DNA from: a virus
IMG/VR virus record: IMGVR_UViG_3300034095_000282
Coordinates: 1 to 40,613 of that record
DNA length: 40,613 bases
Reading direction: 5' to 3' (one strand)
The stretch's first letter is position 1. Every line of letters starts with the position of its first letter. This document shows, one piece after another, positions 22,298 to 23,784 of the stretch. Under the pieces are notes generated by a model that was not told the DNA's origin, made no database searches, and saw only the letters and a program-made list of their open reading frames with translations. The translations under genes were made by a program, and so were the position numbers.

Positions 22298-22305
22298 AAA
22301 AATAG

Positions 22306-22326
22306 AGAGGGGCTAACAACCCCTCT
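22306..22326. terminator. Bidirectional intrinsic terminator between convergent gene blocks
   Basis: AGAGGGG (22306-22312) pairs with CCCCTCT (22320-22326) around a 7-base loop. A T-rich run follows on the plus strand, and an A-run precedes it (22297-22302) that becomes a T-run on the minus strand. It ends both the virion transcript and the early/replication transcript. Confidence 0.85.
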
Positions 22327-22335
22327 TTACTTAAA

Positions 22336-22740
22336 TTAAATCCAAGATTTCTTTTTCTTAGGAAAATCAATAAGGTGGTTGAGACTAACTGGGATAAAAC
22401 CTTTAGGCTTAATCACTTTTCCATTTTTATCCTTAACTACTTTTCCATCTTCTCCAACTTTAGTCATATTATTCTCGTGAACTAATAAGAAAGCCTCTTC
22501 CACTGAGTCTTGAAGACCACATTCATTAACTCCTCCTTTTAGGATATAGTCAATATCTACAAAAGCATCTAATACTTCTACTAGATCATTAGCTTTAAAA
22601 GCATCCTCTAATTCCTTAACCTCTTCTTTAAGAAGTTCAATTCTAAGTTTCATTGCTTCTTTGCTTGGCAGAGTTGGTTTCTCATTTAATTCTTGACCAC
22701 AAGCTGATTGGAATCCTCTTACTAGAGATAGTTTATTCAT
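22336..22740 (-). CDS. MazG-like nucleotide pyrophosphohydrolase
   Basis: 134 aa all-helical protein with the MazG/HisE-type metal-binding pattern: ELLKEEVKELEDAF at about 35-48 and EVLDAFVDIDYIL at about 55-67, giving the two acidic clusters (Glu39/Glu40/Glu43 and Asp58/Asp62) that hold Mg2+ in this superfamily. These enzymes hydrolyse NTPs or dNTPs to monophosphate and pyrophosphate. In phages they may adjust nucleotide pools or alarmones. It is the last gene of the minus-strand block and follows the structured RNA region. The substrate cannot be told from sequence. Confidence 0.75.
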   Translation of the reverse strand: MNKLSLVRGFQSACGQELNEKPTLPSKEAMKLRIELLKEEVKELEDAFKANDLVEVLDAFVDIDYILKGGVNECGLQDSVEEAFLLVHENNMTKVGEDGKVVKDKNGKVIKPKGFIPVSLNHLIDFPKKKKSWI

Positions 22741-22765
22741 TATGTATTTGGTTTTAATTATTAGT

Positions 22766-22905
22766 AATGAAGATGGGATTCGAACCCATACGAACGCAAT
22801 TTTGGATTGACCTGTGCGTTATCTACAAACGAATAACATAGGCTGTGTTCTGCTCATAGCGTCTACCACGTCAGGGAGATACCCCTAACCTTCCGCCACT
22901 TCATT
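22766..22905 (-). tRNA. tRNA-like element with interrupted core (possibly Leu-derived)
   Basis: Read on the minus strand, AATGAAG and CTTCATT form a perfect 7-bp acceptor stem. Just inside the 3' arm is a textbook T arm: ATGGG-TTCGAAT-CCCAT (22773-22789). After the 5' arm come TG, GCGGAA and later GGTAGACGC, the A-box/D-arm signature of bacterial tRNA-Leu. The D loop, however, holds a hairpin (GTTAGGG pairing CCCTGAC, 6-base loop). Between D and T arms there are 69 nt, about twice the Leu length, with hairpins GTTAT/ATAAC and AACGCA/TGCGTT and no clear 7-base anticodon loop. So I cannot give an anticodon. It is either a tRNA with insertions, a decayed tRNA or a tRNA-like RNA of another kind. 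No CCA is encoded. Confidence 0.5.
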
Positions 22906-23052
22906 ATATCCCTCGGTTGAGGGCACTTATCATGGTCCGAGGTAGCGTGTTCAAGTCAAATGACTGAACCTCGTATGTTAAATATTGTTTAGAAACCCCT
23001 CTCTTATAGCTTACCGAGTTATCAGTTACGGAGCTTGTATAAGAGTAGGGTT
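22906..23052 (-). ncRNA. Hairpin array upstream of the tRNA-like element
   Basis: No ORF covers this stretch. It contains three strong inverted repeats: CCCTC/GAGGG with a 4-base loop (22910-22923); CGAGG…CCTCG enclosing GTTCA/TGAAC and GTC/GAC (22938-22973); and a long one, AACCC and CTCTTATA pairing with TATAAGAG and GGGTT across one 2-base mismatch (22994-23052), with inner AGCT/AGCT and CCG/CGG stems. None is followed by a proper T-run on either strand, so they are not ordinary terminators. With the tRNA-like element they span 22766-23052. A structured RNA made from the phoH transcript is the simplest reading; the strand is inferred from the flanking genes. Confidence 0.5.
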
Positions 23053-23136
23053 ACTATTTATACTTATTTTAAAAATGCGTTCTATTGAAATTGGAAGTTA
23101 GTGCGCCTATACCTTATTCATCAAAGATAACAATTA

Positions 23137-23784
23137 TTACTTATATTCAAAATCAAGTATCTTACCTACAATATCAGATCTATGATTGGTTTTTAATTTT
23201 ATCCATTTGATTTCCTCAATCTTCTTAGACAACTCAATCACATAAGATAAACCATTGTATTCATCTCTAATATCCTTCTGTTCGTTATCTCCGTTGATGA
23301 TAATTTTACCAGTCTTACCTAGTCTAGTCAAGATAGCTAACATTTCTGCTTTAGTAAGGTTTTGAGCTTCTTCTACAACAAGAACATCATCAACTGTCTT
23401 ACCTCTAATAAACTGCACTGGAAGTGCTTTTATCTTATCTGTTTTGACTAAGTCTAATATCTTAACCTTATCATAGCACTTAATTAAGTTCTCTTGAAAA
23501 GCCTCTAAATATGGGTCAAACTTATCTTTCATATCTCCTGGAAGAAAACCTAATGAAGCACCAACTTCAACAGCAGCTCTAGTAACTAAAATATGTTCAC
23601 ATTGTTTCTTCATCAAGAAATCCAATGCTGTTTGAGCACATATCAATGACTTTCCGCTTCCTGCTCTACCAGTAACAACAACAATCTGATTATCAATTAT
23701 TAATTGCTTGGCTTCTTTTTGCTCTTCATTTAGTGTAACCTGATATTTAATATCAGACTTCCTAACTCTATTTGGTTCTTTCAT
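23137..23784 (-). CDS. phoH: PhoH-like ATPase
   Basis: 215 aa, the compact phage form of PhoH, an SF1-helicase-like P-loop ATPase. Walker A is GRAGSGKS at 39-46, the Walker B region is VVEEAQNLT (about 136-144) with Glu instead of the usual Asp before EAQN, then INGDNEQKD (sensor-like) and NHRSDIVGKIL near the C terminus. The early VTLNEEQKEAKQ segment is the Q-motif-like entry. PhoH homologues are frequent in phages and may act in RNA or DNA metabolism; the exact role is unsettled. It follows the zinc-ribbon gene with a 17-base overlap and precedes the structured 396-nt gap. Confidence 0.9.
   Translation of the reverse strand: MKEPNRVRKSDIKYQVTLNEEQKEAKQLIIDNQIVVVTGRAGSGKSLICAQTALDFLMKKQCEHILVTRAAVEVGASLGFLPGDMKDKFDPYLEAFQENLIKCYDKVKILDLVKTDKIKALPVQFIRGKTVDDVLVVEEAQNLTKAEMLAILTRLGKTGKIIINGDNEQKDIRDEYNGLSYVIELSKKIEEIKWIKLKTNHRSDIVGKILDFEYK

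Follow-up and report, generated by a model that had tools for sequence, protein, structure and literature searches.

What does a phage do with an RNA that resembles a leucine tRNA in its acceptor, T arm, and D arm and carries, where the anticodon arm should be, something else? The question is raised by a tRNA-like element of 141 nucleotides (nt) on the minus strand of IMG/VR virus record IMGVR_UViG_3300034095_000282, running from 22905 (5′) to the discriminator base A73 at 22765; the window is the entire 40,613-nt stretch of that record analyzed here. A preliminary description of this DNA had proposed a tRNA-like RNA with a hairpin in its D loop and an oversized core. We find that the element is one member of a large and apparently undescribed family of phage RNA genes. 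The reading we favor, tentatively and as close to an even call, is that it is a functional phage noncoding RNA in which a leucine-acceptor tRNA body would carry a fast-evolving structured domain engaged in phage-host conflict.

A phage RNA family with a leucine tRNA body

The acceptor stem (7/7 pairs), the 5-bp T arm, and the Leu-type D arm (GTGGCGGAA...GGTAGACGC) of the window RNA are intact, as first described, and the interval between D and T arms is exactly the 69 nt then reported (Table 1). The D-loop hairpin is also present, though with 8 bp counting G.U pairs (GTTAGGGG-TATC-TCCCTGAC) rather than 7. The window RNA has no anticodon stem with a 7-nt loop and U33. Among the Rfam 15 covariance models, the tRNA model RF00005 was the sole family above cut-off (score 29.1 bits, cut-off 29; E = 0.0052); the covariance search suggested in the preliminary description thus returned a match, with an alignment that jumps over the D loop and the anticodon region. 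ARAGORN called no tRNA or tmRNA at the element. As the single-sequence folding energy was unremarkable (z = −0.9), the case for an RNA rests on comparison with relatives.

Relatives were sought with a layout pattern that left out the acceptor (TGGCGGAA, 12–42 nt, GGTAGACGC, 35–65 nt, GGTTCGAATCC), which matched 49 viral contigs in IMG/VR. A scan of this kind over GTDB genomes (257 billion bases) matched three times; two of these matches are ordinary tRNA-Leu genes, the third is a near-ordinary one, and none is a clear family member. A looser scan without the D-loop part found at least 120 viral stretches. Deduplication left at least 169 distinct RNAs of at least 93 nt, which carry 70 different acceptor stems and 138 non-redundant cores; the scanner behind this set demanded at least 6/7 acceptor pairing, and all abundance figures for the family are lower bounds. 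The layout recurs in more than 100 contigs. Most members are 93–180 nt long, with the typical frame AGTCAGG-TG-GCGGAA-(TT or insert)-GGTAGACGC-(core)-TACAGGTTCGAATCCTGT-CCTGACT-A, and CCA directly follows base 73 in just 7 of the 169. A second clade, from Firmicutes phages and prophages (L301–L354), has the T loop UGCAAAU, with G55, and a 13-bp acceptor-plus-T stack.

Short frame queries also located members, at unannotated sites, in the cultured Flavobacterium phage FL-1, Lactobacillus phage Lenus, Leuconostoc phage phiLM33_01, and Enterococcus phage VEsP-1 (a partial read only for the last). Searches for long DNA matches hit no named phage; the nearest named relatives are Elemovirus isolates, and the elemoA stretch that was read has no such RNA. 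In the open-licence literature, we found no matching description of anticodon-less leucine-tRNA-like phage RNAs, though one may exist elsewhere. A handful of entries within the core counts of 138 and, below, 115 (L101, L103, L107, L120, and L247, one of them in a Fibrobacter metagenome-assembled genome) look like near-ordinary tRNA-Leu genes in whose D loop sits a palindromic insert of 30–35 nt, perhaps a mobile element. These fit the pattern and were not used as support for the anticodon-less class.

In Escherichia coli, leucylation requires A73, A15-U48, G18G19, A20a, and contacts between the D and T loops, whereas neither the anticodon arm nor the long variable arm is needed (PMC9976931, a tRNA identity review). 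The window RNA carries this full set. Among 102 RNAs found without fixing G18G19, A20a, U48, or A73, these bases were kept in 95, 81, 95, and 91, respectively (79–93%). On sequence comparison, then, the family RNAs retain the leucine tRNA body in acceptor, T arm, D stem, and elbow contacts. Because the E. coli leucine determinants are conserved at positions that the search left free, host leucyl-tRNA synthetase (LeuRS) probably charges these RNAs, and recognition by a synthetase, one of the purposes first suggested, is plausible on the same grounds; for the other two, RNase P recognition and a part in host defense, the RNAs are putative candidates.

Absence of a decoding loop

Across 106 non-redundant cores, the 27–31 stem found a partner in 24, against 17.2 in shuffles, which amounts to no clear anticodon stem. 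Leu anticodon loops on a 4-bp stem numbered 0 (2.2 expected), and U33-type loops of any kind on a 3-bp stem were depleted (10 against 18.1 expected); ordinary Leu tRNAs pass this anticodon-loop test. In a 62-kb contig, the family T-arm-plus-acceptor sequence is matched 11 times. Seven full frames of 80–169 nt could be read in this array, and next to it lie an ordinary tRNA-Leu(UAG), an ordinary tRNA-Leu(UAA), and some two dozen further tRNAs. With these two ordinary leucine tRNAs beside the 11 family 3′ ends, decoding is therefore probably not the job of the family RNAs. The predicted family RNAs lack a decoding loop, in line with the preliminary finding of no clear anticodon arm, and its suggestion of a tRNA-like RNA serving another purpose is probably right.

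Separately, two AGTCAGG-framed RNAs (L044:11425-11520 and L136:2002-2095) are read by ARAGORN as tRNAs with the four-base anticodon caag.

A structured, hypervariable core

Selection on the stems is visible across the family. Although the layout pattern did not specify the acceptor, 6 or 7 of its 7 positions pair in 24 of the 26 distinct stems, and in the set for which the scanner demanded at least 6/7, the 70 distinct acceptor stems covary with many pair types. For the window-type D-loop hairpin, represented by 15 sequences, 97.1% of cells are paired, five of the seven pairs show changes on both sides, and there are 17 double-change cells; none of 500 shuffles was as good, and slid controls were far lower. 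Relatives had been proposed as the place to look for random mutations in the acceptor and T stems; what they show is covariation instead, in keeping with the original argument that this is not a decayed tRNA and has gained paired inserts. Folding better than that of shuffles, at p ≤ 0.05, was seen for 25 of 33 distinct D inserts.

The core itself has a fixed point. In 30 of 115 non-redundant cores, against 3.5 expected, the most stable stem stops exactly 2 nt before the T stem, which is where the variable arm ends in type II tRNA. Position 48, directly ahead of the T stem, is occupied by U in 112 of the 115. The AACGCA/TGCGTT stem of the window stops 3 nt short, an offset also enriched in energy family-wide. 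In the Firmicutes (lactobacillus-type) clade, the hairpin of the main core covaries. Taken together, the sequences show the anticodon domain replaced by a predicted structured and hypervariable core, and the D loop as an apparent socket for interchangeable hairpins. A family-wide pseudoknot, in which the loop of the S1 stem pairs with the strand before the T arm, was also considered. It is convincing by eye in L232, L140, and L191 and in L095/L119/L167, clashes in the window with the AACGCA/TGCGTT stem, and is weak overall (combined p = 0.019), so we do not claim it for all members.

Close relatives show how freely these parts are exchanged. In L082, whose MazG protein is 97% identical to that of the window, the core matches but for one base and the D-loop hairpin is unrelated; L081, with a 100% identical MazG protein and flanks that are 92–96% identical, is without the entire RNA. 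L191 is identical to L109/L118 save for the presence or absence of the D hairpin. L122 and L128 have a common core and different D inserts, and L093 and L113 a common D insert and different cores.

Possible roles of the RNA

How such an RNA might work can be sketched. It would be transcribed together with neighboring genes or tRNAs; where ordinary tRNAs lie within 1 kb of members, all 168 of 168 member-tRNA pairs are on the same strand. RNase P would cut the precursor, CCA would be added in tRNA style, and host LeuRS, needing only the conserved positions, would charge an RNA that has no use in decoding. The work itself would fall to the core, with the D hairpin, as a domain that binds protein or serves as a decoy in phage-host conflict, and selection would diversify it upon a stable, processed, leucylated tRNA chassis. 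The variability of the cores, their copy number, and their turnover suggest that the target evolves quickly and most probably belongs to the host.

Several observations weigh against this proposal. Variability, copy number, and turnover are the whole basis for a conflict role, and clustering of the genes neighboring the loci found no partner protein common to them. G73, which blocks LeuRS in E. coli, occurs in about 6% to 10% of members, and in the Firmicutes clade G55 and the 13-bp stack may weaken charging or EF-Tu binding. Over-long non-Leu tRNA frames also occur in phages, some with the same AGTCAGG acceptor, and a Leu body is therefore not obligatory. A prediction that replaced cores occur solely on anticodon-independent frames was contradicted, in its strict form, by a generic-frame scan in which, among the matches listed, 78 of 120 stretches had good acceptor stems. 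Unlike the Leu family, 27 of 59 non-redundant over-long generic frames keep an anticodon stem, so that this group is at least partly something else. Eight non-Leu phage tRNAs (L357, L377, L383, L404, L407, L420, L441, and L455) have a seemingly intact anticodon loop (e.g., CTTTTAA). The 5′ strand of their anticodon stem is split by a roughly 45-nt structured insert bearing an ACAGCAA-like motif, which may be an unusual small intron.

The strongest competitor, a serious if lesser possibility, is that the tRNA body stays uncharged and serves just for stability and for maturation through RNase P and CCA addition, with the core as the working RNA. Engineered tRNA scaffolds act as pure processing and stability chassis of this kind. 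The over-long non-Leu cores, including those with AGTCAGG acceptors on a generic D arm, and the members with G73 fit this account. It does not explain why leucine identity is kept, though a chassis needs no A15-U48, A20a, or A73, and the generic frames that speak for it are partly different, given the anticodon stems among them.

It is improbable that the charged RNA is itself the product, titrating LeuRS or leucine or feeding a tRNA-dependent aminoacyl transferase, with the core merely blocking ribosome use. Retained leucine identity and lost decoding would both follow, and in the Firmicutes clade the UGCAAAU T loop and 13-bp stack would exclude EF-Tu, by analogy with tRNA-Sec and non-proteinogenic tRNA-Gly. 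Such a role leaves unexplained why the cores are structured, covarying, and hypervariable and why D hairpins are interchangeable, and no transferase gene recurred near the loci in the neighbor clustering.

A bacterial Y RNA of the YrlA type, partnering the Rsr/Ro60 protein, is very unlikely. YrlA RNAs do have a tRNA-like domain and do occur in phages (PMC12282133, PMC7790460), and a TROVE protein is encoded in 3 of 25 contigs. The three carriers are among the largest contigs, however, and the other 22 lack TROVE (fragments allowed); where TROVE adjoined a frame-like match, that match was an ordinary tRNA, and there was no Rfam match to a Y RNA. We give equally little credence to a tRNA-Leu whose D-loop and anticodon-region introns are removed to yield a normal tRNA, an option that the preliminary description had left standing. 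The clean presence or absence of the D hairpin in L191 and L109/L118 would suit it; the cores retain neither an anticodon stem nor an anticodon loop, there is no Rfam intron match, and ordinary tRNA-Leu(UAG) and tRNA-Leu(UAA) are already in the same array. A decaying pseudogene with random insertions, as the missing ARAGORN call and the borderline Rfam score might suggest, is already contradicted by covarying stems, a layout in more than 100 contigs, and many copies per genome, and is scarcely credible.

Somewhat more doubtfully than in the reading we favor, the RNA may stand for a new class of phage effector RNAs, in which aminoacylated non-decoding tRNA bodies, arrayed in numbers reaching about ten in one genome, display fast-evolving folded domains against host defense or translation control. 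Phage “tRNAs” are usually read as a translation aid, and these tRNA bodies cannot decode; they occur in phages of at least two host groups (Bacteroidota and Firmicutes), some beside near-complete sets of ordinary tRNAs. They offer a testable case of phages using tRNA maturation and charging machinery for making other RNAs, and a whole RNA class may lie concealed among the tRNA calls that phage annotation skips or marks as “undetermined”.

Setting of the element in the window

The RNA gene is flanked by phoH (23137-23784) on one side and by a mazG-like gene (22336-22740) on the other, and its parts are listed in Table 1. The terminase of this 40.6-kb phage contig has 71% identity to those of elemo-group Flavobacterium phages, with Cellulophaga phages next. 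Against the rest of the window, the longest same-strand match of the RNA was 11 nt, and there were no complementary matches of at least 11 nt.

Table 1. Features of the tRNA-like element (window positions).
Feature	Position	Strand	Remark
Acceptor stem, 5′ strand AATGAAG	22899..22905	-	7/7 pairs with 22766-22772
D stem, 5′ strand GCG, then G13 A14 A15	22894..22896	-	Partner CGC 22859-22861
D-loop insert GGTTAGGGGTATCTCCCTGACGT, hairpin 22889-22882 / 22877-22870	22868..22890	-	Covariation, 15 sequences
GGTAGACGC: G18 G19, A20a, and D stem 3′ strand	22859..22867	-	Bases kept family-wide
Hypervariable core, 69 nt, replacing anticodon arm and variable arm; base 48 = U (22790)	22790..22858	-	
Possible stem TATGAGC / GTTTGTA (22858-22852 / 22830-22824)	22824..22858	-	Centroid fold, single-sequence prediction only
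Possible variable-arm-like stem AACGCA / TGCGTT (22820-22815 / 22798-22793)	22793..22820	-	Sequence
T arm ATGGG TTCGAAT CCCAT, 5/5 pairs	22773..22789	-	
Acceptor stem, 3′ strand CTTCATT, and discriminator A73	22765..22772	-	CCA not encoded, next bases CTA

Immediately 5′ of the tRNA-like RNA, at 22906-23080 on the minus strand, is a second structured RNA, a long hairpin around AAGCTCCGTAACTGATAACTCGGTAAGCT (fold z = −4.1) without an Rfam match. It is present in 18 viral contigs, with compensating stem changes (TTATA/TATAA, TTGTA/TACAA, ATGTA/TACAT), and its occurrences beyond the window are in L081 and L489–L506. In the window, L489/L490, and L500/L506, a tRNA-like RNA follows it immediately downstream. 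At L082:5255-5730, a frame for an HNH/NUMOD4-like endonuclease, named by eye, is inserted in this second RNA. A further hairpin, AGAGAGGGG-CTAACAA-CCCCTCTTT, at 22300-22335 between the convergent structural genes and mazG, resembles a two-way terminator and gave a weak Rfam match to sraA.

Comparison with known RNAs

Among the closest known RNAs is type II tRNA-Leu. The family shares its acceptor and T arm, the sequence of its D arm, the elbow contacts, A15-U48, and A73, and has a helix placed at the variable-arm junction; it differs from tRNA-Leu in having no anticodon arm or loop, a hypervariable core, and D-loop hairpins. Staphylococcal non-proteinogenic tRNA-Gly is charged and excluded from translation, and its T-loop change resembles that of the Firmicutes clade, though it is of normal size and has an anticodon arm. 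Like tmRNA, the family combines a tRNA acceptor/T domain with other RNA in place of the anticodon arm, whereas it has no tag reading frame, about one third of the length, and a full D stem. The YrlA bacterial Y RNAs share with it a noncoding nature, a tRNA-like domain, and carriage by phages, but are tied to Rsr/Ro60, and most family contigs have no Rsr. T4 species 1 RNA (rnaC) is a stable RNA of 139 nt, ending in a GGGTTCGAATCCC T arm, from a phage tRNA cluster. It has no Leu-type D arm, its acceptor match is broken, and it lacks the family frame. Compared by eye, the T arm is the sole common part; in setting and size, it is the nearest classical precedent for the RNAs described here.
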